DNA from: Aquimarina spinulae
Lineage (GTDB): Bacteria; Bacteroidota; Bacteroidia; Flavobacteriales; Flavobacteriaceae
Reading direction: 5' to 3'
Assembly: GCF_943373825.1 (NCBI RefSeq)
Contig: NZ_CALSBP010000001.1
Span: 496,001-560,000 of the forward strand
DNA: 64,000 bases
Of this stretch, positions 3,678 through 30,450 are shown one piece after another (the first letter of the stretch is position 1; each line of letters starts with the position of its first letter). The notes below the pieces were generated by a model. That model was given only the letters and a program-made list of their open reading frames with translations, did no database searches and was not told where the DNA came from. Made by a program: the position numbers and the translations under genes.

Positions 3678-4160
3678 CTATATTCTTTTTATGAGTTCTT
3701 TATTATCCCGTATACCTCGTTTTAGATTTTCGGTAATAATTAGAGCTTTATCAATTCGGGATTGAGAGTTTTTTATTTTTAGGATATAGTAAATTAAGCT
3801 TCGCTTTTTCCCATCGGTTAAAGATTCGAAGATCTCAAAAGCTTCCAGGTCACTTTGTAAAACAGCATCAAATTCTTCTGGCATTTCTACTCCGTATTTG
3901 GTAGTGTCTTCGTGTAATGTAACTTCAAAAAAATCTGTAGGAAAAACTCCCAATTTCTTTTGATTTTGTTTGTTAAAAGTAATGTGGTAATTGTTTTTCC
4001 ATTTTTGTAAAGCCGCATGATATTGTACCGACACCGTATTAAAAGTAATTTCTACAATCACCCTTTTATGCCCTTCTTCTATAAGGTATTGTGCAATTTT
4101 ATTGGGTATAATAATGCTATGACTAGAATAGAGTGAAGTTTTAAAAATATGAGTTTTCAT
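3678..4160 (-). CDS. YdeI/OmpD-associated family protein
   Basis: A 160-residue soluble protein with an N-terminal DUF1905-type half (residues about 5-95) and a C-terminal helical half carrying MPEEFDAVLQSD and ESLTDGKKRSLIYYI, typical of the YdeI/OmdA 'bacteriocin-protection' family. No signal peptide is visible. The molecular function is unknown in this family. It is a single gene with no operon partner and is separated from the M36 peptidase gene by 414 bp of AT-rich DNA. Confidence 0.8.
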   Translation of the reverse strand: MKTHIFKTSLYSSHSIIIPNKIAQYLIEEGHKRVIVEITFNTVSVQYHAALQKWKNNYHITFNKQNQKKLGVFPTDFFEVTLHEDTTKYGVEMPEEFDAVLQSDLEAFEIFESLTDGKKRSLIYYILKIKNSQSRIDKALIITENLKRGIRDNKELIKRI

Positions 4161-4574
4161 TGCTTTTAAATTTACCGAAAAAATAAAACAAAGTTTGTTT
4201 TATTTTTAGAATATCTTGTTTAATGTTTTTGTAATAGTGTTAGTCAAATTTGATATTTAGTAAAGATAACTAACGTTAGTTTTAGAAAAAAATGATACTA
4301 AATTCGACGCTTTTTCCGTAATGCCGAAAAGGGATTCATATCCTTCTCTTTTTTTAGGTAATTTTTCTGGCAAAAAATATTTTAATCATAGAACGTGTAT
4401 TCATAATAGCTAAGCAAAGTATTATGAATAACAAAAAGTACTATACTGTAGATATTAAACATATTTCAATATAATTGTTAAATTTTGGGTGTTTGATGAG
4501 GTATTCTCATTTGTTTTTATAGATGCTTTAATTTTTTGTTAATTTTATAGGACACAAACTCAAAATTTTATTTT
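4161..4574. other. Intergenic region, no gene seen
   Basis: AT-rich DNA between two divergent genes with no open frame that resembles a protein. It holds a perfect 14-bp palindrome, AACTAACGTTAGTT, at 4268-4281, a possible operator, and presumably the promoters of both flanking genes. A precise promoter cannot be assigned by eye. Confidence 0.4.
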
Positions 4575-7500
4575 ATGAAAAATGGTTACTCGTTTGTCAT
4601 TCTATTATTATTAATAGGACAAACAATTCTTGCACAGAACTCGAACGCTCTCGTTCGAAATCACTTTAGTGATATTGCTAAAAATGAATCCTCAAAAACG
4701 TTCAATACTGATTTTTCAGAATGGAGAATAACAGATGAGGTTCCTTCATTAAAACCTGGTATTACACATGTATATGTTAATCAACTTTATAATGGGATTT
4801 CTATTGTTGATGGAGCATATAAGTTAACGGTTAAAAATGGTAAAATTACTTATGAAATTGATCAATTTATTAAAGGAGTAAAATCAAAAGTAACTTCTAC
4901 CAAAACATCTTCTACAGAAATTTCGGCAATAAATGCCGTTATACGAGCGCATAACTTGCCTTCTGCTAAAAGATTATCTAAAACTGTAAGTAAATCTAAT
5001 GGAAACGATGTTTCGCAATTCATGGATTCTGGAATTACAGGTGATAACGAACCTATTCAGGTTAGAAAAGTATATAAACTATACAATAATGAATTACGCC
5101 TAAGCTGGAATGTGACTCTCTATGAGAAAAACGGACATAACTGGTGGAATAGTTTTGTAGATGCTGCTACAGGTGAAATTATATATGAAGATAACTGGGT
5201 AGTAAAATGTACTTTCGAAGGTGCTGATCATAAATCACATAATGATGAATCTGTACTTTTTGATACTAAGCCACTGGTAACAGCTGCAGAAGCACCAACG
5301 GCAGCTTTGGCACCAGATTCATATAATGTACTTGCAATGCCGGTAGAAAGTCCCATACATGGTAGTCGTTCTATAGTTACAAATCCGGCAAATGCTACAG
5401 CATCTCCTTTCGGATGGCATGATACTAACGGAAGTAACGGAGCAGAACACACCATTACAAGAGGTAATAATGTATGGGCACAGGATGATATTAACGGCAA
5501 TAATGGTACGGGTTCTTCTCCTAGTGGAGGATCAAGCCTTGACTTTGATTTTCCATTAAATCTTAATCAGGATCCAAGTAATTATAGAGATGCAGCTATA
5601 ACTAATTTATTTTACTGGAATAATATCATACATGATGTATTCTACCAATATGGTTTTAATGAAGCTAGTGGAAATTTTCAGGAAAATAACTATGGTAAAG
5701 GAGGAGCAGGAAGTGATTCTGTAAATGCAGATGCTCAAGATGGTAGTGTTACTTGTAATGATCCAAGAACTAATTGTATCAATAATGCAAATTTTGGTAC
5801 TCCGCCAGATGGAAGCAACCCAAGAATGCAAATGTTCTTATGGAATAAAACAAACCCTAAGAGAGATGGAGATTTTGATAATGGAATTATAGCTCATGAG
5901 TATGGACATGGTATTTCTACTCGATTGGTAGGAGGACCTTCTTCTAATGTTTTAGGAGGATCTGAACAAATGGGTGAAGGATGGTCTGACTTTTTTGGGT
6001 TAATATTGACCATGAAAGCAGGTGATGTAGGGACAGATGGAAGAGGTGTTGGGACTTATGCGCTGGGTCAACCAACTTCTGGAAACGGAATTCGACCAAC
6101 CCGATATTCTACAGATACATCTATTAATAGTACAGATTACGGAGATATAAATAATCTTCGTGTACCGCACGGAGTTGGTTATGCATTTGCAACAATTCTT
6201 TGGGATATGACCTGGGCTTTAATTGATCAGGAAGGTTTTGATGCCGATTTTTATAATGGAACTGGTGGGAATAATATTGCTATGGCCCTTGTTATCGAAG
6301 GATTAAAGAATACAGCTAATAACCCAGGATTTGTTTCGGGTAGAGATGGAATTCTTCAGGCAGATAAAGATCTGTATAATGAAAAATATAAATGTTTGAT
6401 TTGGAAAGCATTTGCAGCACGTGGAGTAGGGCAAGATGCTAACGAAAATAATAACGGTGGTTCTAATACTAATTCAGATCAAACGGTTTCTTTTGTTAAT
6501 CCTTGTGATGACCCAGGTCCAGGGCCTGGTAATTGTTCTGGTGATGTGACTTCATTTCCTTTTTCAGAAAGTTTCGAAACTAATTTAGGGCAATGGGCAC
6601 AAGCAACATCTGGAGATGACTTAAACTGGACAAGAAACTCTGGAACCACTCCTTCTACAGGAACAGGACCAAGTAGTGCTGCAGATGGTACATTCTACCT
6701 GTATGTTGAAGCTTCTGGTAACGGAACAGGATATCCTAATAAAAGAGCTATTTTAAATTCTCCTTGTTTAAACTTTAGTAGTTTAACAACTCCTAAACTT
6801 GGATTCCAATACCATATGGTAGGAAGTGCCATAAATACTTTGGTAGTCGAAGCGAGAACCGATAATACAGGAAACTGGACAAGCGTATTCTCTAAGACAG
6901 GTGCTCAGGGTACCGGTTGGAATACAGCAGATGTTGATCTATCAGCATATGCAGGTAACACAAGTGTACAATTACGATTTAATGTAGTTACAGGTAGTGG
7001 TACTAGTGGTTGGCAAAGTGATATCGCGATAGATGCGGTGAGTATTCAAAATGGTACAACAAACCCTCCAGTGTGTGATGCATTGAATTTTAATGATTTT
7101 ACAATCACAGCATTCTCTAATCAAGATAGTGCAGGTAATTTCTCAATCGTAAGTGGTGGAGCTGGATTATCGATGCAGAATAATACCTGGAAATATATTA
7201 GCCTTAACTATACTGTTACAGCAAATACAGTAATAGAGTTTGATTTTAGCAGTACTTCTCAAGGCGAAATCCACGCAGTTGGTTTTGAAAATGATAATTC
7301 ATTGACCTCTTCTAGATATTTTAAAGTACATGGAACTCAAAATTATGGAGTAACTAATTTTGATAATTATGCTAGCGGAACCAAGAAATATGTTATTCCT
7401 GTGGGTGACTTTTATACAGGTAGCATGGATCGTTTAGTATTTATCAATGATAACGACGCAGGAAGCGGAAATAACTCAATATTCTCTAATGTGAAGATTT

Positions 7501-19819: not shown

Positions 19820-20959
19820 CTAATGCTTCTTTTCGGACTCATTTTTTAGTTTTTTAAGATATTGACTTGGAGTTAGTTGGGTTGTTTTCTTGAAAACAAG
19901 ATTAAAAGTAGACTTTGAATTAAAACCACATTCATAAGCAAGCCCTAATAACGATAGTTTATTTTGATCTGAAGATTTTAAACGTTCTATAAATGCTACA
20001 ATACGATAAGAGTTAACCAAATCATAAAAATTTTGAGAACAGTTTTGATTAATTTTTAATGAAACTTGCTTAGGTTTCATTTGTAACAATTCAGAGAGCT
20101 TAGTTAAATTTAGGTCAGGATTTAAGTAAGGCTTTTTATGTTGCATTAACTCTTCCAATTTTTGTACAAACTGCTGGTCTTTTTCTACTAATTGTTTATT
20201 TGGTATTTTTTTTATTACTTCTAAATCCAAAGATGATTTATATTTTCTTAAATATCCCTTAAAACCTATCCAGCTGCATAGTATGGCCAATCCTACAAAT
20301 GTGGGAAGAAAATAATACTCTTTTAAATTTCTATCAAAAATAAATCGATCTATTTCTGTAATTATATTCCATAAAATAAAAAAGGAAGCATAAATAATTA
20401 TTGGAGTTTTTAACCAATTGTGTGAACGCTTATCTAATTTGGAATAATATTCCTTTAGTAAATTTTGATGTTTATAAAGTAATCTTAAAGAGATAATGCT
20501 ATAGCTAATAATTGAAATGACTCCTATCCATTGCTCGGTCAAATATGCATAACTAACAGTTGGCATAGGGGTAGAATACAATCCATCTGCGCCATTTCTG
20601 TATATAGATGTTCTATAAAAGATAAATTCTAATATAAGTGGTAGAAAATGAATAGCATCTTTTCTAGAAAATTTAAAAGATGGGGTAGTTACACTTTTAG
20701 TATAAAAATATAATGCAGGACCAATACCGTATAGCATTTCTAGTTGAATATACCTAAAAACCCCAAGCATGTCATTATCTTTTAAAATATTAACCAGAAC
20801 TATGTTTAACGCCATTATGGCGTAAAAAAAAGTTAACATTGCTAAAAACTTGTGGGCTAAAGTTCTGGGGCGTTTTAAAAAAATAAGCACACTTAATACT
20901 ATGGCCTGAAGAGCAAAAACAGATATAATAGTAAATAAAACGGAATTTGAAGTAATCAT
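19820..20959 (-). CDS. Membrane-bound AraC-family transcriptional regulator
   Basis: A 379-residue protein with about seven hydrophobic helices in residues 5-235 and a C-terminal AraC HTH domain (about 265-375; NLTKLSELLQMKPKQVSLKIN ... ECGFNSKSTFNLVFKKTTQLTPSQYL). It has the same architecture as the gene at 10.8 kb. It precedes the S41 protease gene by about 130 bp and may regulate it. It is also the last conserved-looking chromosomal gene before the cassette-like array. Confidence 0.87.
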   Translation of the reverse strand: MITSNSVLFTIISVFALQAIVLSVLIFLKRPRTLAHKFLAMLTFFYAIMALNIVLVNILKDNDMLGVFRYIQLEMLYGIGPALYFYTKSVTTPSFKFSRKDAIHFLPLILEFIFYRTSIYRNGADGLYSTPMPTVSYAYLTEQWIGVISIISYSIISLRLLYKHQNLLKEYYSKLDKRSHNWLKTPIIIYASFFILWNIITEIDRFIFDRNLKEYYFLPTFVGLAILCSWIGFKGYLRKYKSSLDLEVIKKIPNKQLVEKDQQFVQKLEELMQHKKPYLNPDLNLTKLSELLQMKPKQVSLKINQNCSQNFYDLVNSYRIVAFIERLKSSDQNKLSLLGLAYECGFNSKSTFNLVFKKTTQLTPSQYLKKLKNESEKKH

Positions 20960-21177: not shown

Positions 21178-21915
21178 CTATTTTTTATGAGCAATAATAA
21201 CATAAGTCGGAAAAGCATATGATTTTTTCTTAATAATTTTTCTGATTTCAAAATTATTTATTTGAAGAAATATTTCAATTTCATTTATGGTAAAAGTTCG
21301 TATTATCGAATTGTCTTTTCCGATTTTAATTAATTTCTTTCCTTCTTTTTTATAATAATTTGATTCCCAAATAAAATCCATTCCTTGTTTTAAATTTAGG
21401 TTCCATTTACTTTTTCGAACATAGTACATGTTATCATAACTTGCTTCGTGTGTTATTTCTTTTCCTTCAGAAATTTCTGGTATGAATTTATTAGCATCAA
21501 TAAAATCAAAACAAAATACCCCTCCTTTTTCTAAATTATTATGAATGCTTTTTAAGGTAGAATCTACATCTTGATTGCTGAGTAGATAACTAATAGTCCT
21601 TCCTGTCATTATTATGCTTTCCACTGGTTTTTCAAGTTTAAAAGAACGCATATCTCCTTTTATATATATACAATCAGGGTTTTTTATTTTGGCTATCTCC
21701 AGCATTTCTTCATTTAAATCAAAGCCCAAATATTCAAATCCATTTTTTTTAAAATATGTTGTCAGGTTCCCAGTTCCGCTACCTATTTCTAAAAGGCTTT
21801 TTTTGTTATATTTCCTAAGTACTTCACTATAAAACTCATATTCACCTTTATAATCAATAAAAGTAGCATACATTGCTTCATAAACTTTTGCTAAATCAGA
21901 ATACAGCCTATTCAT
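21178..21915 (-). CDS. Class I SAM-dependent methyltransferase
   Basis: A 245-residue Rossmann-fold methyltransferase with motif I at E43-N50 (EIGSGTGN), the acidic ribose-binding residue in YLGFDLNEEML, and the post-I GDMRSF segment. The substrate is unknown; the closest pattern is the Methyltransf_25 type acting on small molecules. It is the most downstream gene of the minus-strand array. A GTTGCC-type half-site at 21135-21140 follows its stop, but I could not find a convincing partner arm there. Confidence 0.85.
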   Translation of the reverse strand: MNRLYSDLAKVYEAMYATFIDYKGEYEFYSEVLRKYNKKSLLEIGSGTGNLTTYFKKNGFEYLGFDLNEEMLEIAKIKNPDCIYIKGDMRSFKLEKPVESIIMTGRTISYLLSNQDVDSTLKSIHNNLEKGGVFCFDFIDANKFIPEISEGKEITHEASYDNMYYVRKSKWNLNLKQGMDFIWESNYYKKEGKKLIKIGKDNSIIRTFTINEIEIFLQINNFEIRKIIKKKSYAFPTYVIIAHKK

Positions 21916-22025
21916 TTATGTTGAAATTGTTTATGAGTTTTTTGGTATTATGTTCATTTTTAAAGCCCACTTAAAGACTGGAACCACAAAATTGAATCAG
22001 TTGTAAATTAAAAACTTTGCGAACT

Positions 22026-22096
22026 GCATAAAGTTAAGGGAATTCTCGATTAAGCACAAGATTTTGTATTAATTATAGGGCACTGTGTTGTGTGCA
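22026..22096 (-). repeat. attC-like site (degenerate)
   Basis: It follows the stop of the ZipA-like gene by 12 bp. On the plus strand the right arm is GTTGTGTGC (22087-22095), and the left arm GCATAAAG is only a rough match. Inner arms CTCGATTAAGCAC and GTATTAATTATAG share an ATTAA core, and the latter closely matches the inner arm of the site at 28.3 kb. Confidence 0.4.
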
Positions 22097-22108
22097 GTAC
22101 TTATTTCC

Positions 22109-23194
22109 TTAATACAGCGTTAGTGAATTGTCAGAACCCGGAATTATTCCGTTATCAGTCATTTTTTTTATTAATTCAGCCAATTGTATTAATTCTAATT
22201 GTTCATTAAAAGGTTCTCCGTTTCTATTTATGATTTGCCCACCTAATCTTGTTTGACAGTATTTTATTGAATTAATTAAAACTCTATAAACATTCATTGG
22301 GTCTGCACTTCTCGGAATAGAAAAACCAAATACTAAATTAGTAGGATTCATCTTTCCGTTTTTTATTTGTTCAGGAAGGAAGTAACCAGGTTCGGTTGAA
22401 GTCCAAACGCTAAAGTGTTGGTCAGACGCATATTCTGAACTATTATTCCAGTGAAATAAATCTCCATCTCCCCAATTAAGACCTAAACTTTGTAAAACAT
22501 CCCAAACTTCTCTACCATCATACGTGCTTTGGTTTTGCAGTCCAATAAGAATGTCTTTGTCAAATAAACCATTTAGTTTTATTAACTGCTTACTTTTTTC
22601 AATTGCTGATTCTTTGGATTCTGTTTCCTTAATCTCAAAATCCAATGAGTGCTTTTCAAGTCTTTTCTTTAATTCATGAATATATTTTTCTAATTTTTTA
22701 TGGTCGTAATTCGGGTTTTCTTCATTGAAAACGTCAAGAAGACTAATTGCGATTTGAATTTGGTCATATGTTTCTGGTGTTCCTCCTGCAAGAGCATAAG
22801 TCCATCTGTTATCTTCTGGAGAATGTCCGAATATTGTTGAAGAAAAATTTGTTCGCCATTCTAAATCAAATAACTCATATAATTTCTCCTGTTTGATTAT
22901 TTTTCCGCTTGGTATTACTAGGTCAATAATCCATTCTCTACTCGAATCAGCTTTATACTCGACTTCCTCTTCTTTATTTTCAATTTCAGGAATTTGAAGT
23001 TGTTTTTCGTCCAATATGTGAGACATATCTTCAGAAGATTTATTAAGACCTAGCTTTTCAATTCTGTCTGCACTTTGAGATGCAGTAGATATGAAGAATT
23101 CATCTTGATTTGGTTCAGATTTTGTTTTTCTTGTCAAGAAGAAAATCACTCCGATTACTATAATTCCAATGATTAAGTATGTCATTTTATTCAT
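22109..23194 (-). CDS. Membrane-anchored ZipA C-terminal-domain-like protein
   Basis: About 361 residues from the ATG at 23194 (MNKMTYLII). A GTG nine codons upstream would place the start inside the attC-like site, so I rejected it. One N-terminal transmembrane helix (about 5-20) is followed by an acidic linker to about 100. Residues from about 220 resemble the ZipA FtsZ-binding domain: LGLNWGDGDLFHW, a short HFSVW strand, PGYF, then VFGFSIPRSADPMNVYRVL and RLGGQIINRNGEPF. The anchor, linker and domain order matches ZipA of Gammaproteobacteria, which is not normally part of the Bacteroidota divisome. It may target FtsZ or be an immunity-type protein. Confidence 0.62.
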   Translation of the reverse strand: MNKMTYLIIGIIVIGVIFFLTRKTKSEPNQDEFFISTASQSADRIEKLGLNKSSEDMSHILDEKQLQIPEIENKEEEVEYKADSSREWIIDLVIPSGKIIKQEKLYELFDLEWRTNFSSTIFGHSPEDNRWTYALAGGTPETYDQIQIAISLLDVFNEENPNYDHKKLEKYIHELKKRLEKHSLDFEIKETESKESAIEKSKQLIKLNGLFDKDILIGLQNQSTYDGREVWDVLQSLGLNWGDGDLFHWNNSSEYASDQHFSVWTSTEPGYFLPEQIKNGKMNPTNLVFGFSIPRSADPMNVYRVLINSIKYCQTRLGGQIINRNGEPFNEQLELIQLAELIKKMTDNGIIPGSDNSLTLY

Positions 23195-23217
23195 TTTGTT
23201 CGAGAGTTTCTCGTATT

Positions 23218-23308
23218 GCACACAACGTGTTTGTATATGGTTAGTTGCGGGGGTTTGCTCGTAAGTAGTCTATAATCAATTAATTATTTTGGACACTTTG
23301 TTATGTGC
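23218..23308 (-). repeat. attC-like site between ZipA-like and SUKH genes
   Basis: Outer arms GCACACAACGTGT (23218-23230) and ACACTTTGTTATGTGC (23293-23308) are complementary apart from a 3-nt bulge. The inner arm ATGGTTAGTTG pairs imperfectly with CAATTAATTAT. The right arm begins 3 bp after the upstream gene's stop codon. The core reads GTTATGTGC rather than the classic GTTRRRY. Confidence 0.6.
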
Positions 23309-23311
23309 TTT

Positions 23312-23953
23312 TTATTTATTTTTAGATAATCTTAATGAGTTATATTTTTCCAGATAGTTATTCCAATCAAAATCAGGAAATAATTGAGGCATATGAGATT
23401 TAAAATCCTTAATCAAATCACTTTCAAAACTTTCATATTGAATATCCAGTAAAATCAATGGCCAGTTTTTGTAGGCTCTTGATTCATATAACATTGTGAT
23501 ATATCCCTCAAAATTTATATCCAAACTTTTGGTTGATCGTTCTCCCCAAGTATGGGTATAAATTGACTCCCAAGTTCCTGTTTCATTGTCAATAATGAAT
23601 CCACAACTAAATTCAGGTGAAACATTGTCAAATGGATGATAAAACTCCAAGAGCTCATTAAATTCTAAATCGTCTCGTTCAAAGACTTGTCCTTCCCAAC
23701 TTCCGACAATAGTTTCAAAATCAATAAATTCAAGATTTCCATAAGCTTGTTCAATATTATTGGCTTTCCAGTTTATTTCTAAACCATTAGTTTTATTATA
23801 CATTTCCTGAAAACTTTTATCAAACATAGATAATCGGCTAAGAAGAGATTTCTTTTCCATTGGGATCATATATCTGAAACCAAGTTCTAAGAGATTGTTC
23901 TTTTTTGCTTTGTAGAGTTTAATTTCTAGATTTTCATAAAATTTAAGAGCCAT
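23312..23953 (-). CDS. SMI1/KNR4 (SUKH) family protein
   Basis: A 213-residue soluble protein. The central segment FQEMYNKTNGLEINW ... LEFIDFETIVGSW and the later FSCGFIIDNETGTWESIYTHTWGERS fit the SUKH fold, whose bacterial members often act as immunity proteins against nuclease toxins of polymorphic toxin systems. No toxin gene lies beside it. It is one unit of the minus-strand cassette-like array, with an attC-like site starting 3 bp after its stop codon. Confidence 0.72.
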   Translation of the reverse strand: MALKFYENLEIKLYKAKKNNLLELGFRYMIPMEKKSLLSRLSMFDKSFQEMYNKTNGLEINWKANNIEQAYGNLEFIDFETIVGSWEGQVFERDDLEFNELLEFYHPFDNVSPEFSCGFIIDNETGTWESIYTHTWGERSTKSLDINFEGYITMLYESRAYKNWPLILLDIQYESFESDLIKDFKSHMPQLFPDFDWNNYLEKYNSLRLSKNK

Positions 23954-24153
23954 ATTATTCTGTTATATCTAATTATTTTACCTTAAAACTTCAAGTTTAT
24001 TTAAAAGTAGATAAAATGTTCTTATTTATTCTAATTGATTCTGACTAGCGTCAATTTTTGATGTTGAAAATTAGCTATTTATTTTTTTGTTTTCCACTCA
24101 TTTTTCTCAATCTACGTTAGCATAGTACTAAAGGCTTTTGAGAGCTATGAGGG

Positions 24154-24208
24154 TGCACATAACGTTTGGCTAAACAGCGTTTTAATGTGGTTTAGGTTTT
24201 GTTAAGCA
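24154..24208 (-). repeat. attC-like site between two SUKH genes
   Basis: A compact 55-bp site. The outer arms TGCACATAAC (24154-24163) and GTTAAGCA (24201-24208) pair through TAAC/GTTA. The inner arms CTAAAC (24170-24175) and GTTTAG (24190-24195) pair perfectly and are offset by spacers of 6 and 5 nt. It follows the upstream gene's stop by 11 bp. About 200 bp of untranslated DNA separates it from the next gene start, possibly the remains of a lost unit. Confidence 0.65.
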
Positions 24209-24219
24209 TAGTTATTTAC

Positions 24220-25005
24220 TTATTTAAATTTATTAAATTTTAAAATTATATTATTTAATCTTTCTCTATGTATTGGGCTTTCGGAAAAATGTTTTTCAAG
24301 CTCTTTTATATGTTTATTTATTTTTAGATACTTTTTAGAAAAGCTAGCTTTAGGAATAAATGCAATATACCAATGCCCAACAAATCCAAATAAAAGGAAA
24401 TAATGAATAAATTCTACAAAATCAATACTCATAGGATATATACCCTCTCCAGTCCCACTTCTCCCAGATAAAAGATACATTTGATATCCATTTTTATTTT
24501 TGCTTTTCAAATCAATAACGATATCATCATCATAACCAAAGATAGGAGCAATCTTCTTTACTCTTCTAAGTATGTTTGCTTTTTTTACTTCTTCTAAAGT
24601 ATTAAAACCCTCAAAATCCTCTGGAGAATATAGTTTCCCAAAAAAAGGATTTTCTTTCTTTAAATAATAATCTTGTAGATCGAAATCATCATTGTATTTT
24701 GAAAGATTTAAGTTATCAGGAAAAGGAGTAGCTTCTTCTTTGAATTTATCAAACATTTCATTAAGCGAGCAAATTTTGGCCTCATCAATATTTCTAGACC
24801 TTCCTTGTAGAGTATAGGTTATACCATTGTGTTTTGAGTAAAAGTTATTTATATCTTCAGGAAAATCTGAATACTTTTCACTAAGAAGTTCAAGCTGCTT
24901 TTTGTTTTTAGATTTAAAACTAATGTATATTTTTTTTATACCTACTTCATAGAGGTAATCTTTTCCCCAAGGCTTAAATTTATTTTTTTTTAAATTTTTT
25001 TTCAT
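24220..25005 (-). CDS. SMI1/KNR4-like (SUKH) protein
   Basis: A 261-residue, very lysine-rich soluble protein. LLSEKYSDFPEDINNFYSKHNG is the typical SUKH N-terminal helix pair, followed by the LNEMF helix and a beta core ending in DFVEFIHYFLLFGFVGHW. The bacterial family is linked to immunity against secreted toxins. It is a second SUKH protein directly upstream of the first, but the two sequences are not close copies. AT content and lysine codon use look higher than in the flanking chromosome. Confidence 0.65.
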   Translation of the reverse strand: MKKNLKKNKFKPWGKDYLYEVGIKKIYISFKSKNKKQLELLSEKYSDFPEDINNFYSKHNGITYTLQGRSRNIDEAKICSLNEMFDKFKEEATPFPDNLNLSKYNDDFDLQDYYLKKENPFFGKLYSPEDFEGFNTLEEVKKANILRRVKKIAPIFGYDDDIVIDLKSKNKNGYQMYLLSGRSGTGEGIYPMSIDFVEFIHYFLLFGFVGHWYIAFIPKASFSKKYLKINKHIKELEKHFSESPIHRERLNNIILKFNKFK

Positions 25006-25025
25006 CTCATTTATTTTCTATAGTA

Positions 25026-25078
25026 TGTCTAACAGTTTGTACATAGTTTGTTGCAATACGCTTTAGTATGCGTTATGA
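25026..25078 (-). repeat. attC-like site
   Basis: TCTAAC (core TAAC 25030-25033) and GTTATGA (core GTTA 25072-25075) are the outer arms. The right arm lies 4 bp after the stop codon of the upstream gene, and the left arm is 20 bp before the next start. The inner pairing is weaker than at the other sites. Confidence 0.45.
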
Positions 25079-25082
25079 AATG

Positions 25083-25886
25083 TTATATTTTACTAAAATA
25101 CCATCTATCCTGAGGAGCTGGTGAGTTTGGAATCAATTTTGCTTCCCAACCAAAATAAATAGAAATTTGCTTAATTCGTTCTTCATACTTTCCTGGATAA
25201 TTATTCCAACCAGGCCATAATTCGATTTGGTTTCCAGAAAAAAAGTAGTTGTTATATGTTGGATTATTCTCTGATGCTAAATTCTTGAAAAAGTCTTCAA
25301 TCCAAATTTCAGGATCTATATATTCTAAAGGAATCCACCCAGAGAATGCTATAGGATAAAATTCGGTCCTGCCTTTAATCATTAGCTTAATACTTTCTTT
25401 ATCATGATCAATTTCTTGTATTTTGATAAAAAAATTGATTCCAGGAAAATGATAAGAGTCGTATACATCGATCCAAAATTCTCCATCTTTAGATTTTTGT
25501 CCTTTACAATCAATTTCAGATCCTTTCAGCCTATAGTTTTTATCATTGAAAAATAAACTTTCATTGTATTCACTAATCAGTAAACCAGAATCTCCTGATA
25601 CAGTAATCTGTGTTTCATCGAGCCATTTGATTAATTTATCTTCAACTTTATTCTTCCCCAATATATCAATCAAACAATCCGAATTACATGAATAATGAGT
25701 AGCACAGCCATTCGTCATTATTTTGAATGAGACCAATTGATGACATTTTTTGTCTAATCTTTTAATGATTTTAACCTTTTTTGTTTTTGTATTGAACCCA
25801 AAATGACCTATATATAACAAATTATCGGATAAAATATCAGGCGGACGAATCTTATCTTTTGAAGTTATTTCAGGAATTTTATTCAT
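25083..25886 (-). CDS. Hypothetical protein of the cassette-like array
   Basis: A 267-residue soluble protein that I do not recognise. It has no signal peptide or membrane helix. It is rich in aromatic residues in its second half (WIPLEYIDPEIWIEDFF, FGWEAKLIPNSPAPQDRWYF) and has cysteines clustered at about 59-75 (NGCATHYSCNSDC), which could be structural or metal-binding. Its position among SUKH and ankyrin genes suggests an immunity or stress role, but this is only context. Confidence 0.6.
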   Translation of the reverse strand: MNKIPEITSKDKIRPPDILSDNLLYIGHFGFNTKTKKVKIIKRLDKKCHQLVSFKIMTNGCATHYSCNSDCLIDILGKNKVEDKLIKWLDETQITVSGDSGLLISEYNESLFFNDKNYRLKGSEIDCKGQKSKDGEFWIDVYDSYHFPGINFFIKIQEIDHDKESIKLMIKGRTEFYPIAFSGWIPLEYIDPEIWIEDFFKNLASENNPTYNNYFFSGNQIELWPGWNNYPGKYEERIKQISIYFGWEAKLIPNSPAPQDRWYFSKI

Positions 25887-25966
25887 ATTCTAATTTAATT
25901 GTGGTTTCAACTCCAGTAAAGACTGTCAAATCTTAAGAACCTTGATTTTTATGTGAATCAATTATT

Positions 25967-26016
25967 ATTAAAGATAGAGTCAAAACAGTATCTGCAAATA
26001 GGGAGCTATCTTTAAT
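25967..26016. repeat. Inverted repeat after the ankyrin gene
   Basis: A perfect 11-bp inverted repeat, ATTAAAGATAG (25967-25977) and CTATCTTTAAT (26006-26016), begins 1 bp after the stop codon. It occupies the place where the other units carry an attC-like site, but lacks the TAAC/GTTA core. It could be a divergent site or a simple terminator. Confidence 0.45.
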
Positions 26017-26017
26017 T

Positions 26018-26632
26018 TTATTGTTTTTCAAGGTTAAATAATTCCGAAATATTCAAAAGCCCCAAATCTATAGCGTATTGTTGGGCTTCAATAAATATAT
26101 CTTTAGGAGGGATATTATTTAATATCATTCTCACCAGAACTTCAGCCTCAATCCCAACAGCCCCAATAATCGGATGATACGTCCCATTGGTTGGGTTTGT
26201 GATGGCACCATTCTTAATTAAGTATTCTGCTTGTAGCATGTACTTTTCTGATTGGTCATTTTTCCCAGTGTTTGGGTGCAGTAAATGCTGTAGAGCTGTT
26301 AAACCCTCCTTATCTTCAATATTAATATTTGCCCCATGTTTTACAAGTATTTCAACACACCTAGTATTTTTTGCTCTTTTTGGTAGAAGATGTATGGGGG
26401 CATAATTATACTTATTATTATTCTCATTAATCATGGCTTCATTACTTGCTAAACACTCTAAAATATTAGGAATATTATCATACACACACCAGTGTAGCAT
26501 GCTCCAAGCTTTTTTTGATGTTTTATAGTTTACATCTGCACCATCATGAATTAAGGATTGTACTTTCTTTAAGTGGTTATCACTTTTGCCCCACTTTATT
26601 GTATCGTAAAGTTCTTTGCTTAATTTTTTCAT
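26018..26632 (-). CDS. Ankyrin repeat protein
   Basis: A 204-residue cytoplasmic protein with about four ankyrin repeats in residues 20-150 (LIHDGADVNYKTSKKAWSMLHW, NKYNYAPIHLLPKRA, LVKHGANINIEDKEGLTALQHLL, YLIKNGAITNP). These repeats mediate protein binding; the partner is unknown. It is one unit of the minus-strand array. Small ankyrin proteins often occur next to toxins or catalases, but neither is present here. Confidence 0.85.
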   Translation of the reverse strand: MKKLSKELYDTIKWGKSDNHLKKVQSLIHDGADVNYKTSKKAWSMLHWCVYDNIPNILECLASNEAMINENNNKYNYAPIHLLPKRAKNTRCVEILVKHGANINIEDKEGLTALQHLLHPNTGKNDQSEKYMLQAEYLIKNGAITNPTNGTYHPIIGAVGIEAEVLVRMILNNIPPKDIFIEAQQYAIDLGLLNISELFNLEKQ

Positions 26633-26645
26633 TAGAGTTAAATTT

Positions 26646-26710
26646 GCTTCAATGATTTCGCTAAACTGTGTTTTACTGCATTTTTAATACCGTTTGTACC
26701 TTGTTATAAC
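26646..26710 (-). repeat. attC-like site
   Basis: The right arm GTTATAAC (26703-26710) starts 4 bp after the upstream gene's stop codon. The left side GCTTCAATG then ATTTC and GCTAAAC (26660-26666) closely resembles the left half of the site at 24.16 kb (GTTTG then GCTAAAC), although the left core is mutated from TAAC to AATG. The left inner arm GCTAAAC matches CGTTTGTACC on the right in part. Confidence 0.5.
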
Positions 26711-26714
26711 TGGA

Positions 26715-27149
26715 TCATTGTTTTCGGGTGAACTCAGAAATAACATTGCACCAGTCTTCAGTTCTAGTTTTTATATCCTCTTCAATATCAAATCTTGAAT
26801 AATAAGCTGAAATTAGGATTTTATTATTTTCGTTTGATACGAAATAAGCAGAGATTTTATGGTTTTCACTTTTATTTATTACAATAATCCGTTTGTAATC
26901 TTGATACTCTTCAAGTTCAAGATACCTATTACTTATCGAAATCTCCAGTGACAAAGATTCTTTGTCAGAAAGTAATCTTTTTGAAAGTTTTATTTGTTCG
27001 CCCTGGACTTTAATATAATCTGCAATAGTATTAAAATACTTTGCTAGCAAGCAATTTTTTTCTTGTTCATTGGATTCAGTCTTCATTTTGTTAACATTGG
27101 GTCCAAATGTTAATGTACTTATAAGTAGATATAAAAATACGTTCATCAT
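26715..27149 (-). CDS. Small exported hypothetical protein
   Basis: A 144-residue protein with a probable short signal peptide (MNVFLYLLISTLTFG). The rest is a mixed helical and beta sequence with no recognised motif and no cysteine cluster. Two adjacent ATG codons could start it, and I kept the outer one. An attC-like site begins 4 bp after its TGA stop, and another ends 11 bp before its start. Function unknown. Confidence 0.6.
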   Translation of the reverse strand: MMNVFLYLLISTLTFGPNVNKMKTESNEQEKNCLLAKYFNTIADYIKVQGEQIKLSKRLLSDKESLSLEISISNRYLELEEYQDYKRIIVINKSENHKISAYFVSNENNKILISAYYSRFDIEEDIKTRTEDWCNVISEFTRKQ

Positions 27150-27160
27150 TTTTTTAGCTT

Positions 27161-27256
27161 GTTTGTAACGTCTCGACTATGAGTAGTTGAGTAGGCTAGC
27201 ACTTAACTTTGTAAGTACACAATGACCACAGCAATTAGTTATCCTTTGTTAGTAAC
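27161..27256 (-). repeat. attC-like site
   Basis: Outer arms GTTTGTAAC (27161-27169) and GTTAGTAAC (27248-27256) pair at 7 of 9 positions. The left half continues GTCTCGACTATGAGTAGT, nearly the same as the left half of the 28.1-kb site. It begins 4 bp after the lipoprotein gene's stop and ends 11 bp before the next start. Confidence 0.65.
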
Positions 27257-27260
27257 AGTA

Positions 27261-28037
27261 CTATTTTTCTATATACTCTATTTTTAAAAGCATCGGCTCT
27301 TGAGTAGTAACATTTTCCCATTCGGTTAATATAGAAATTGGCAAACCATTTTCATTATAGATGTAACTTAATTTTGTTTTACCATTATCATAAATAGTCA
27401 TATTATTAGACGAAATATTTCTTTCCAATATTCCAATACCTCCCATTTTTGGTATTAAATCAATTTGAATAATGTAGTCTAAATTAAAGGACGGCTTTTT
27501 ATTAATGTCGTATGAATATCTACTAATTTCCTCTGAAATATTACCAGTTGTTGGGTCTGTATAATAATGAGTTACTTTGTGTACATTACCATTGTTATCA
27601 TATTCATATAAATTTAAAGGAGAAGAATTATCCGGAAAAAGGTGTTTCAATCGCCCATTTGAATAATATTCATAGTTAACATGACTTAGAATATTTCCAT
27701 TTTTTAATACTTCACTTCTGATAATTCTATTTAAATCATTATAATAGATAAGTATACTGTTACTAAATTCAGGAAAAGTATAGTCTATATATTTAACTTC
27801 ATTTACTTTGTTATTAATGTAATTAAATATTAAGTCAGAAGAATTTCCTGTTTCTGGATCAATAAAAATTCTTCTTGTCAATTGGTTTTCTTCGTTATAA
27901 ATATATTCTGCCAAGAATCTATTTTGATAATCAAAAACTTTACTAACTAAAAATTCTTTATTTTCATCAATATTAGGACCATCATCATTTTGACAACTAA
28001 TAAAAAGAGTTAAAAATATAATGGTAATCTTTTTCAT
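27261..28037 (-). CDS. Lipoprotein with RHS/YD-like beta repeats
   Basis: About 258 residues from the ATG at 28037 (MKKITIIFLTLFISCQND); a TTG three codons upstream is a poorer start. The lipobox cysteine is in LFISCQ. The mature protein consists of repeated strands such as IYNEENQLTRRIFIDPETGN and YEYDNNGNVHKVTHYYTDPTTGN, the pattern of YD/RHS-like or DUF4595-type repeats of Bacteroidota surface lipoproteins. It is probably periplasmic or outer-membrane anchored. Its start overlaps a short upstream frame that looks like a truncated membrane protein. Confidence 0.72.
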   Translation of the reverse strand: MKKITIIFLTLFISCQNDDGPNIDENKEFLVSKVFDYQNRFLAEYIYNEENQLTRRIFIDPETGNSSDLIFNYINNKVNEVKYIDYTFPEFSNSILIYYNDLNRIIRSEVLKNGNILSHVNYEYYSNGRLKHLFPDNSSPLNLYEYDNNGNVHKVTHYYTDPTTGNISEEISRYSYDINKKPSFNLDYIIQIDLIPKMGGIGILERNISSNNMTIYDNGKTKLSYIYNENGLPISILTEWENVTTQEPMLLKIEYIEK

Positions 28038-28113
28038 AAATATCAATTAATAAAAAATAGTTAACCCAAATCCAAGCTATGAAAATTGCAATGATTATAT
28101 AAAATATCAACAT
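27997..28113 (-). pseudogene. Possible truncated PrsW-like N-terminus
   Basis: A 38-codon frame from ATG 28113 encodes one membrane helix (MLIFYIIIAIFIAWIWVNYF) then LLIDIYEKD, which recalls the first residues of PrsW-type intramembrane proteases. It stops at 27997 after running into the lipoprotein gene in another frame. It sits directly after the attC-like site at 28.13 kb, so it could be the remains of an earlier unit, or a small membrane peptide. The assignment is from memory of the family pattern and is weak. Confidence 0.3.
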
Positions 28114-28130
28114 AATATTTGGGTGCTTAC

Positions 28131-28324
28131 TGCTAACGTCTCGGCTATGATTAGTACGGGATTAAAAAGCAATTAATTTCCGATTAAGGACTTAGCCAAA
28201 ACTTTTTATTTTGTTTTTATTTTTTCATTTTAAAGCCAAATCAAAAGATTTGGCGGACTTAGCTGATATGCCAACTTTATATCTTAAACAGCCAAACCCG
28301 TATTAATTATAGCCATTGTTAGCA
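28131..28324 (-). repeat. attC-like site, best example in the array
   Basis: Outer arms TGCTAAC (28131-28137) and GTTAGCA (28318-28324) are perfect complements. Inner arms GGCTATGATTAGTACGGG (28143-28160) and CCCGTATTAATTATAGCC (28297-28314) pair at 16 of 18 positions. Spacers are 5 nt and 3 nt, giving the offset seen in integron attC sites. The 136-nt centre contains another perfect hairpin, GCCAAATC/GATTTGGC (28235-28254). The site starts 6 bp after the stop codon of the first cassette-like gene. Confidence 0.72.
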
Positions 28325-28330
28325 ACTGGT

Positions 28331-28816
28331 TTATATTGCTTCGTATTTAGTTCCAACAAATTTCAATTTCTTAATTCCACCATTTAAGCAGTCCGCAGAA
28401 TTTGTCTTCCATATTTTTAATTCTACAAATGAGTTATTCTTTTCGATAATTCTATAAGTTCCAATTCTAAAGTTCATCTTAAGTCTTAAAAAAAATATTT
28501 TTAATCTTGACTTTTCTTCTATTATCTTTTCTCCATTAATAAATTCCATATAATCAAATCGGTCGATATTTTCTCCAATTATCTTTTGAACATTATTTTT
28601 GTCTAAATAATAGATGTTTTTGGTAGTCAATAATATTTTTTCTTTTCTACTAAATTTTATTAAAACGACTTCTAATTCATTACTTTCAAGCTTTAATTTC
28701 TCTTCAAGTAAATTGTTTGAATTATCGAAAAACCTGATTCCTCTAGAATGTCGATAATATTTAATTTTCAATAGTATCTGTTTTCGTATGTCTTCTTTTT
28801 TCTTTCTGATTTTCAA
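28331..28816 (-). CDS. Hypothetical protein, first unit of the cassette-like array
   Basis: A 161-residue basic, lysine-rich protein with no recognised domain. The start is an unusual TTG at 28816, because there is no ATG until residue 90 (YMEF). The N-terminus has amphipathic basic helices, and the middle has beta strands (KEKILLTTKNIYYLDKNNVQKIIG) that could form a PH-like barrel. It has no signal peptide. It is the most upstream gene of the array, next to the leader repeat shared with 55.7 kb. Confidence 0.5.
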   Translation of the reverse strand: MKIRKKKEDIRKQILLKIKYYRHSRGIRFFDNSNNLLEEKLKLESNELEVVLIKFSRKEKILLTTKNIYYLDKNNVQKIIGENIDRFDYMEFINGEKIIEEKSRLKIFFLRLKMNFRIGTYRIIEKNNSFVELKIWKTNSADCLNGGIKKLKFVGTKYEAI

Positions 28817-28848
28817 AAGAGTGTTTTTTAAGTCGGATACTTGTTGCC

Positions 28849-28979
28849 AACAATGTTATATGCGCAATAGTACACATATACCTACTTATACGTATTTATA
28901 AACGTTTGTAAATATTTGTTTTAGTGTGATGCTATACAATAAAGATACCGCCAAATATGCAGAATAAAAATATATGCGT
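28849..28979. repeat. Leader repeat, copy 1
   Basis: About 130 bp similar to 55670-55795. Shared blocks include GCAATAGTACACATATAC, CGTTTGTAAATATTTGT and the TAAAGATA region, at roughly 75-80% identity by eye. Both copies lie just upstream of a minus-strand gene start and contain a GTTATAT core (28856) like those of the attC-like sites. It may be an attI-like or promoter-bearing leader. Confidence 0.65.
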
Positions 28980-29099
28980 CATGATATACCTCTGGTTTGT
29001 GACGAATAGTTGTAAAAAAGGGATGATTTTAATGGTATAGATCTATAAAATTATGATTATAGCATGTAGTAAAGCTATCGGTGTACTTCTATTGTAATT

Positions 29100-30281
29100 T
29101 TAAATGTCTTCGATTGGTTTGGTATTACCACTGGCAATATGCTCTAATGTACCTAAATATTCAATGTTGATTATGCGATTAAATCTTTTTTGATATTGTT
29201 TTTTGGGAAGAAGTCTCAATAATAAAAGGAGTAGTTTTTTTTGAAAACTAGTATTTGTCATTGACATTTTACCAATTTTCCAGGATTGTTTCACAATATA
29301 TTTAACTTTTTTAGATCTTATGTTTTGGTATTCAGAAAAAGCAGTATTGGTATTGTTTTTAAGACAAAGCCCCAAAGTGTATGCATCTTCGATAGCTTGG
29401 CAAGCTCCCTGTGCAAGATTTGGTGTAGTAGCATGAATAGCATCACCAATAAAAACAGTATTGTTTTTAAACCAGTTTTTATAACTAGGATTTATATCTA
29501 CCAGTTCATTTTGAAGGATATCACTTTCGGTTGTTTTGTTTAGCATATCCAACACTATAGGAGCAAAATTTTGATAGGTTTCTAATAGATACGATTTTAA
29601 AGATGTCGACACACCTTTATTAAAATTCTTTTTTTCCTGTACAGCTAACCAGAATATTTTGGTATCGTTTAACGGTAAGAATAAGAACCGTAATGTTCCT
29701 TCAAAAAGCTCATAATACGTGTGTTTTAGATCAGAGTTAATATCAAAATCAGTAATTCCTCTCCAAATTATTTGATGGGTATGTCTTATTCTAATTTCGG
29801 GAAAAATAGACTTTCTAATCGTAGAGTTAATTCCATCAGAAGCAATTAAAGTATCAAATTCTATAGCGGTATGATCCTTAAATGTAATCTTTACGCTTTC
29901 TTCGTTTTCAATACTTTTAACTTCTTTGCCTAGCTCATACGAGTTTTGATCTAATTTGCTGGAGATAACGTCTATGATTGATGCTCTGTGAATGCAATAA
30001 ACCTCTTCTGGGAAAGGAACTGTTTTTAGAATTTTTAATTTTTTGGTGGCAAGTATTGTTCTTTTTAACAAATGCCCTTTTGTTCTTAATTCTTCACCTA
30101 TATTAAGTTTGTCAAATATTTTTAGGGCATTAGATGCAAGTCCGATGCCTGCTCCGACTTCTTTAAATTCATTAGATTTTTCGAAGAGTTTAAAATCCTG
30201 GTTATTCTTTTTTAGAGTTAGAGCCATTGTTAAGCCTCCGATTCCTCCGCCGACAATTGCAATCTTATCTTTTGTATCCAT
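29100..30281 (-). CDS. FAD-dependent monooxygenase (PHBH-type)
   Basis: About 393 residues from the ATG at 30281 (MDTKDKIAIVGGGIGG), chosen because family members begin just before the FAD-binding GxGxxG; an upstream ATG at 30335 would add 18 residues. It has the Rossmann FAD motif, a middle substrate domain, and the GDAIHATTPNLAQGACQAIEDA motif that binds FAD ribose. It hydroxylates an unknown, probably aromatic, substrate using NAD(P)H and oxygen. TetX-like or ubiquinone-type relatives are alternatives. It is a single gene with no pathway neighbours. Confidence 0.88.
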   Translation of the reverse strand: MDTKDKIAIVGGGIGGLTMALTLKKNNQDFKLFEKSNEFKEVGAGIGLASNALKIFDKLNIGEELRTKGHLLKRTILATKKLKILKTVPFPEEVYCIHRASIIDVISSKLDQNSYELGKEVKSIENEESVKITFKDHTAIEFDTLIASDGINSTIRKSIFPEIRIRHTHQIIWRGITDFDINSDLKHTYYELFEGTLRFLFLPLNDTKIFWLAVQEKKNFNKGVSTSLKSYLLETYQNFAPIVLDMLNKTTESDILQNELVDINPSYKNWFKNNTVFIGDAIHATTPNLAQGACQAIEDAYTLGLCLKNNTNTAFSEYQNIRSKKVKYIVKQSWKIGKMSMTNTSFQKKLLLLLLRLLPKKQYQKRFNRIINIEYLGTLEHIASGNTKPIEDI

Positions 30282-30450
30282 TTTTGGATCTCTTATTTTA
30301 GCCATAGTACTGATAATGTCTTTTATATGGTACATTTGTATCTCGAAGGGAGAGAAAATGGACTATACAAATTACTAATTATTTTTTATTTACTCGATGG
30401 CATAAACTAGTAACTTTACAATACCAAACAACGTTCAGTTAGAGTGAATA

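Follow-up and report, generated by a model that had tools for sequence, protein, structure and literature searches.

The window analysed here is a 64,000-nucleotide stretch of the 6.24 Mb genome of Aquimarina spinulae (C1:496001-560000), and at 21178-28851 it carries an array of gene cassettes that is real but partly decayed. This block is very probably a cassette array of an integron-like system of the Bacteroidota, located at an attI-like site with no integrase next to it and built by the mechanism proposed below. The system appears, from its sequences, to be a variant of the integron whose recombinase is Xer/XerA-like and not IntI. The array in the window is weak and partly decayed, and the strong evidence rests on related arrays, in which the two ends of single cassettes are complementary to each other and the sites are predicted to fold better on the bottom strand.

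Cassette ends and predicted hairpins

In an integron cassette the 5′ end was formerly joined to its own 3′ end. The own-end test took two ten-base stretches, one closing with AAC behind a gene and one opening with GTT in front of the same gene, and scored their pairing; a strict pass was set, by the analysis itself, at 6 of 7 informative positions. Across 12 arrays, flanking genes included, 33 of 135 genes passed, against 4.9 on average and at most 14 when the partners were permuted within arrays (n = 5000); pairing with the 5′ end of the next gene gave 4/123, and genes elsewhere gave 0/125. The test was extended to 35 of 80 named loci, where 44 of the 162 downstream same-strand genes passed, at 13 loci. 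For 15 of the 35 loci, selected once that result was known, passes were seen in 42/123 downstream genes, 2/146 upstream genes and 1/35 downstream genes on the opposite strand, and loci rich in passes were those of Seonamhaeicola aphaedonensis (6/8), Rufibacter sp. (9/16), Algibacter onchidii (6/12) and Flavobacterium enshiense (7/13). Own-end complementarity together with the G^TT crossover of IntI integrons was found, with exceptions among the loci. Ten canonical IntI loci from the phylum gave nine passing genes, five of them upstream and divergent, three upstream on the same strand and one downstream. Further stretches with attC-like repeats gave no strict pass (L182, L183, L186, L188), one (L187) or one per strand (L184). 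A simple GCTAAC...GTTAGC pattern was dropped as a marker, with fewer matches across the genome than its control (2 vs 7 per strand). Elsewhere in the genus, a long array (G297:C1:752000-801000; loci L201, L179 and L202) holds 17 strict own-end cassettes among 54 minus-strand genes.

The structure of the sites was followed in 41 sites from arrays in which both neighbouring cassettes had been identified. These were chosen by an own-end pairing of at least 5.5, so that the pairing of their R stem is not independent evidence; the inner helix, which was not used in the choice, pairs at 9.8 of 12 positions on the top strand and 11.0 of 12 on the bottom strand, with 7.5 for cross-genome top-strand arms. 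The inner helix reads better on the bottom strand in 31 sites and on the top strand in 3, and by predicted folding energy the bottom strand is more stable in 37 of the 41 and the top strand in 3, one being equal. The Wilcoxon p of 2.8e-7 for this difference overstates independence, since sites within an array are related. Control stretches after other genes (n = 125) were divided 54 to 64 between bottom and top (p 0.55), and all 41 sites had z < -2 against 30 mononucleotide shuffles each, a figure that includes the chosen R stem.

The strand difference arises largely because of wobbles: in 63 of 77 the top strand has an A in L″ and a C in L′, and the commonest helix positions are 7 (17) and 12 (19). 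An exact succession of six pairs, a wobble, four pairs and a wobble is present in eleven sites, and likewise in the intact site of the window, while under the same test the pairing of 5/10 canonical sites is interrupted at position 7, the expected place of a bulged base. On the bottom strand 24 of the 41 sites are predicted to form 14 ungapped base pairs with at most one miss, and in the predicted folds of these 24, which the bulge check covered, the bulged extrahelical bases of IntI attC sites were not seen. Compared with the core RYYYAAC/GTTRRRY, position -3 is a pyrimidine in 41/41 sites and position -4 is an A in 18/41, AAC and GTT being fixed by the choice of sites.

In the window the gene calls agree with a preliminary description, made from the letters alone, in giving nine genes between the flanks of the array, all on the minus strand. 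The contents named there also stand in Pfam for the methyltransferase, ZipA_C and ankyrin genes; SUKH is matched only below the cut-off (SMI1_KNR4, E 0.019, 16 bits against 25.4, in cassette E), and the other five genes have no family at E 0.05. Of the inverted repeat said to follow most stop codons, an AAC half-site lies within about 25 nt of the stop in 7/9 genes. Folding, a check suggested in the same description, gave a clear excess over dinucleotide shuffles in two intergenic stretches, the one holding 28131-28324 (bottom strand, z -3.06) and the one after gene 23312 (bottom strand, z -3.02), and none in the other seven. The best site, 28131-28324, proved to be as described: on the top strand its inner helix has six pairs, an A.C, four pairs, an A.C and six pairs (16/18), and on the bottom strand it is an unbroken 18. 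Whole or partial copies of this site (query 781-970) are found in 28/32 genus-mates searched, at 70-94% identity and with edges near 781 and 970. The repeats of Vibrio known as VCRs recur likewise as dispersed sites. Own-end complementarity in this array alone was modest (38.0 vs 29.9 +/- 3.3, with 1.04% of 20000 permutations as high), and 1/9 genes passed the strict test. An Rfam scan of the window gave no family at the gathering threshold.

The recombinase, its attI and the turnover of cassettes

The genome has five tyrosine recombinases over the Pfam cut-off and none of them lies in the window; two are taken for XerC and XerD by length and match. IntI over cut-off is absent from the genome. 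Of the five, the one at C3:620779-621906 (375 aa) has an attI and heads an array of its own, whose small genes follow it immediately on the same strand and carry the same kind of site. The array in the window had been called integrase-less, with a recombinase of its own, unseen, as one of two readings: no integrase is adjacent to it, the genome does hold a non-IntI recombinase with attI and array on another contig, and the second reading is the better one. The whole-genome search for a tyrosine recombinase that had been suggested thus led to the C3 enzyme.

The best PDB relatives of this enzyme are XerA (5hxy) and the XerC-like 4a8e. It scores 224 bits with NCBIfam NF040815, just over the cut-off of 220, and 192.2 bits with the IntI model TIGR02249, below its cut-off of 265. 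The spacing between the catalytic arginine and the HxLRH motif is 89 in 19/19 recombinases labelled array-bearing and 131 in 9/10 canonical IntI (the nine with a motif match), so that the array recombinases are without the insertion of ~42 residues near patch III. These residues are missing at the region of the IntI alpha-I2 helix, which is described as contacting the second extrahelical base (PMC3053210), and we infer that the absence of the helix and the absence of bulges go together. The enzyme has an extra N-terminal domain relative to IntI; the N-terminal stretches of eight recombinases gave no Pfam family over cut-off, with SAM-like core-binding matches below cut-off at L078, and a possible likeness to the HARP domain found no support.

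Upstream of the C3 recombinase, and divergent from it, lies a gene for a 122-aa Zn-ribbon protein (C3:621999-622367). Such a divergent gene adjoins 11 of the 13 close recombinases read (it is absent at L047 and L053) and is present at 10/35 named loci. The wider family occurs in 182/295 genomes of the class, and this genome has a lower-scoring copy of its own at C2:3130525-3130839; the family being so widespread, only high-scoring members beside recombinases are informative, and the Zn-ribbon was dropped as a general marker of the system.

After the stop codon of the recombinase, 14/27 loci (L049 being doubtful) have a palindrome with arms of 7-14 bp and G^TT within ~8 nt; an 8-bp version, overlooked by the scan, is present at the C3 locus. 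This is the arrangement of an IntI integron, with attI beside the integrase and cassettes inserted at it. The arms vary by locus, several have ATAAAC, and the right arm seems to resemble the L box of the sites. In the window the palindrome at the insertion point was read by eye, the automated scan having ranked another candidate best. The attI-like segment is common to a same-species genome and one genus-mate up to ATTG^TT, where divergence begins. A segment of ~196 bp (28849-29044) ends at this point and has whole or partial copies elsewhere in two genus-mates, G295 and G323; the copy in G295 has no obvious cassettes after it.

Cassette turnover could be followed against the same-species genome, G348. 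At the window locus the two agree through the attI-like palindrome to ATTG^TT, after which the sequences are different, and agreement resumes at the site before cassette F. The first cassette of G348 has its R″ as GCACGCTAAC and its 5′ end as GTTAGCGTGC, and the position of cassette E is occupied there by a different gene with a related site. Genus-mate G295 has the attI-like segment elsewhere, with yet another sequence past the same point, and no array at its monooxygenase locus. The integrase locus behaves in the same manner: the Zn-ribbon gene, the recombinase and attI are shared with G348 as far as C3:620598, three bases past the G of G^TT, beyond which 9.4 kb here and 29.9 kb in G348 have no blastn match over 250 bp, and the flank that follows these variable cassettes is again 98.7% identical. 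Cassette G recurs in a different array of genus-mate G297 with 82% identity over 1154 aligned nt, its edges lying at GTT and just past AAC. In this comparison of one same-species genome and two genus-mates the reading as a cassette array was not refuted: the gene content differs, and the left breakpoint falls at G^TT.

Proposed mechanism and its alternatives

In the mechanism proposed, each cassette would consist of one gene and an attC-like site, and its circular form would join the R″ and R′ of the same cassette, hence the own-end pairing. The bottom strand is predicted to fold into an outer R stem carrying AAC/GTT, a spacer and an L helix in which the two top-strand A.C positions become T.G, and these T.G positions may serve as the strand signal. 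The Xer/XerA-like recombinase would then cut at G^TT and join the hairpin to duplex attI; the geometry of this step is visible in the arrays, and its catalysis is presumed. Since attI would lie past the recombinase's own stop codon, often as a palindrome followed within a few nt by G^TT, the cassettes would stack downstream of the integrase and codirectionally with it, and fast turnover is indeed seen between the two genomes of one species. The array in the window would be, or would formerly have been, a substrate in trans of the enzyme at C3:620779-621906.

Several results weigh against this reading. Shuffled sites also lean to the bottom strand (27 bottom and 13 top of 41, with a mean gain of 0.8 vs 3.2 kcal/mol in real sites), so that base composition accounts for a share of the strand bias (~0.8 of 3.2 kcal/mol). 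In the window, no AAC is present within 40 nt past the stop of genes 26018-26632 and 21178-21915, and the seven intergenic stretches that fold no better than shuffles mean that most sites are degraded. The right-hand breakpoint relative to G348 lies within similar attCs and gives no single sharp point, and the copy of cassette G in G297 kept R′ and R″ with a different site interior. Of the 35 named loci, 12 have downstream genes and no strict cassette, L091 (0/10) and L122 (0/8) among them, and 10 have no downstream gene in the stretch examined. The scan for attI palindromes found none at about half of the 27 loci, and the genus-mates G295 and G297 have attC-like arrays and yet no recombinase at E 1e-60.

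Units of one gene in one orientation, AAC/GTT cores and dispersed repeated sites would also be expected of a classical CALIN, i.e., of standard integron cassettes brought in and mobilised by a canonical IntI of outside origin. A CALIN is defined as at least two attC less than 4 kb apart (PMC9668308), and the window, with no recombinase in the stretch, has one intact hairpin only. This origin is nonetheless improbable, because no IntI over cut-off is present in the genome, because the sites have wobbles where canonical sites break (5/10), and because in several genera the arrays stand behind a different recombinase. IntI over cut-off was found in 105/395 genomes of the phylum, only one of which, G142, is listed in the class of the window (the share of that class in the 395 is not stated).

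The membership of 28131-28324 in a dispersed repeat family, and the seven window stretches that fold like shuffles, could be explained by ordinary intergenic hairpins, such as terminators or REP-like repeats, with gene turnover by homologous recombination between the repeats. Homologous exchange, however, yields no complementarity between the 3′ end of a unit and its own 5′ end in letters particular to that unit, nor would it set breakpoints at G^TT beside an attI palindrome, and an explanation of this kind is very unlikely. It is harder still to credit that the sites are recombined by the host XerCD, with the linked recombinase as a bystander: Xer proteins are the nearest relatives of the new enzyme among solved structures, and the genome has two Xer-like genes, but the arrays stand directly behind a third recombinase, often with an attI-like palindrome between, and upstream genes at the same loci are almost without cassette ends (2/146).

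Related systems, distribution and features of the window

The integron-like reading can be set beside systems already described. With IntI integrons (TIGR02249, including sedentary chromosomal integrons and CALINs) it shares one gene and one attC per cassette, the G^TT crossover, own-end pairing, a bottom-strand hairpin (predicted here), attI beside the integrase and cassette turnover. It differs in an integrase that is below cut-off, is without the ~42-aa insertion, has an extra N-terminal domain and often has a Zn-ribbon partner, in paired wobbles in place of bulged bases, and in an array that is downstream and codirectional. The last arrangement, with the integrase transcribed toward attI and in the direction of the cassettes, is also that of the chromosomal integrons of Treponema, which are set apart by their description as intI integrons (PMC3607928). 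The XerA, XerC and XerD recombinases include the best PDB relatives (XerA and XerC-like) and share the NF040815 match, whereas the new enzyme is linked to arrays, has the extra N-terminal domain and has an attI-like site behind its gene. Among the matches listed in the open-licence PMC literature, judged by title and the start of the abstract, no such integron in Bacteroidia was found, the founding rAID paper being outside this scope; the IntegronFinder 2.0 paper gives one complete Bacteroidetes integron outside Chlorobi/Ignavibacteriae, in Salinibacter (PMC9024848).

Relatives of the C3 enzyme on plasmids of Parabacteroides distasonis and Bacteroides ovatus, and in Mediterranea, also head codirectional genes, and on the two annotated plasmids the array genes include SMI1/KNR4, Tdi1 and other immunity genes. 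This is the anatomy of rAID arrays, with a tyrosine recombinase, codirectional short genes and conserved intergenic motifs (PMC12247911), and the rAID-type label is given to the three arrays from this anatomy. The own-end test with GTT fails on them (0/8, 0/14 and 2/12); with ATT, 7/8, 8/14 and 7/12 genes pass, a result reached by 0/5000 permutations in each array. The ATT core was adopted after viewing the intergenic sequences of the first array, so that the other two are the fair test. As the three arrays fit the rAID description and pass with A^TT, an integron-like building of rAID arrays is proposed as a candidate mechanism; a 2025 preprint describes their biogenesis as 'an area of active research' (PMC12247911). 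They have in common with the flavobacterial arrays a tyrosine recombinase related to the C3 type and codirectional short genes, and they differ in their core, A^TT and not G^TT, and in holding mainly orphan immunity genes, against the mixed genes of the window and of flavobacterial arrays. The C3 array of this genome has the rAID layout; the array in the window has neither the adjacent recombinase nor the orphan type VI secretion (T6SS) immunity genes.

Besides this genome, 11 others of the 295 from the class have a full-length relative of the recombinase with at least 52% identity (one partial), distant relatives are present in many, and within the genus 28/37 genomes have a match at E 1e-60, some of them partial. 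Relatives head arrays in several Flavobacteriaceae and in Rufibacter, not all of their loci having one. A quick tree of weak resolution places the close recombinases in a 19-row clade without IntI (SH-aLRT 96); it did not show a single clade for all array-bearing recombinases, the label needing 12 changes. Phages gave no relative at E 1e-40. At six loci (L048, L051, L052, L055, L057 and L062) draft contigs stop within a few kb after the recombinase, which would fit repeated attC breaking the assembly, so that drafts may under-count arrays.

A broader proposal stands at slightly better than even chances: that the Bacteroidota own a major integron class with a non-IntI recombinase, in which the strand identity of the hairpin lies in two wobble pairs (top-strand A.C) instead of bulges, and which fills the niche that IntI leaves nearly empty in Bacteroidia, builds the rAID arrays of the human gut and is the source of the truncated integrase next to tet(X3) on plasmids of Acinetobacter. 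Integron surveys look for IntI, and a second widespread type would, if true, alter both the tally of cassette systems and that of the genes carried in them. It would also put to the test whether hairpin recombination depends on the IntI insertion and the bulged bases or can do with substitutes for them, and it offers a candidate mechanism for rAID biogenesis that may explain the toxin-immunity gene arrays of gut Bacteroides.

On an Acinetobacter indicus plasmid (L269, NZ_CP041297.1) tet(X3) has immediately upstream of it, at 4052-4717, an N-truncated relative of the array recombinase that matches residues 143-376 of the query at 52.5% identity, and of 108 plasmid records with a match 50 are from Acinetobacter. 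This suggests that the region originated in Bacteroidota cassettes.

Group II introns were also met with in these arrays. At L057 an intron with reverse transcriptase and maturase domains, on the bottom strand, interrupts the R″ of the first cassette near the G/TT point; Rfam gives group II matches, two over the gathering score and one at 39.3 vs 40, and the other end lies beyond the contig. Group IIC-attC introns insert at attC in this way. On a plasmid of Chryseobacterium sp. SNU WT5 (L270, 18732-20048) a group II intron reverse transcriptase is found inside an array that stands behind a recombinase annotated as site-specific tyrosine recombinase/integron integrase.

The features of the window are collected in the table. 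The array is flanked by a gene for an FAD monooxygenase (29100-30335) and one of the AraC type (19820-20959), both named from sequence.

Table. Sites, cassettes and single genes of the array, with positions counted in the window
Feature	Position	Strand	Remarks
attI-like insertion point	28851..28881	-	imperfect palindrome TATATGTG-8nt-CGCATATA, 5 nt, then the G of G^TT; crossover 28851/28850
Intact attC-like site	28131..28324	-	full hairpin; dispersed repeat in genus-mates
Cassette A	28137..28850	-	gene 28331-28816, 161 aa, no Pfam family, with its attC
Cassette B	27169..28136	-	gene 27261-28037, 258 aa, no Pfam family; site partly decayed; boundaries by inspection
Cassette C gene	26715..27149	-	144 aa, no Pfam family; R″ present, hairpin weak
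Ankyrin-repeat gene	26018..26632	-	Pfam Ank_2, 3.7e-11; no recognisable site behind the gene
Cassette D gene	25083..25886	-	267 aa, no Pfam family; weak site
Cassette E	24163..25005	-	gene 24220-25005 with site; boundary 24163/24162
Cassette F	23226..24162	-	gene 23312-23953, 213 aa, no Pfam family; own ends AGCACATAAC / GTTATGTGCA
Cassette G	22089..23225	-	gene with ZipA_C domain, ZipA_C 3.2e-14; own ends TGCACACAAC / GTTGTGTGCA
Methyltransferase gene at the array end	21178..21915	-	Pfam Methyltransf_25, 1.1e-12; no site

In cassette A the own ends AGTTGCTAAC / GTTGGCAACA pair at 5.5/7, with G.T counted as half, and the gene of cassette B is preceded by a short open reading frame. The methyltransferase gene at the far end of the array is retained in genus-mate G297, where it stands between different neighbours.

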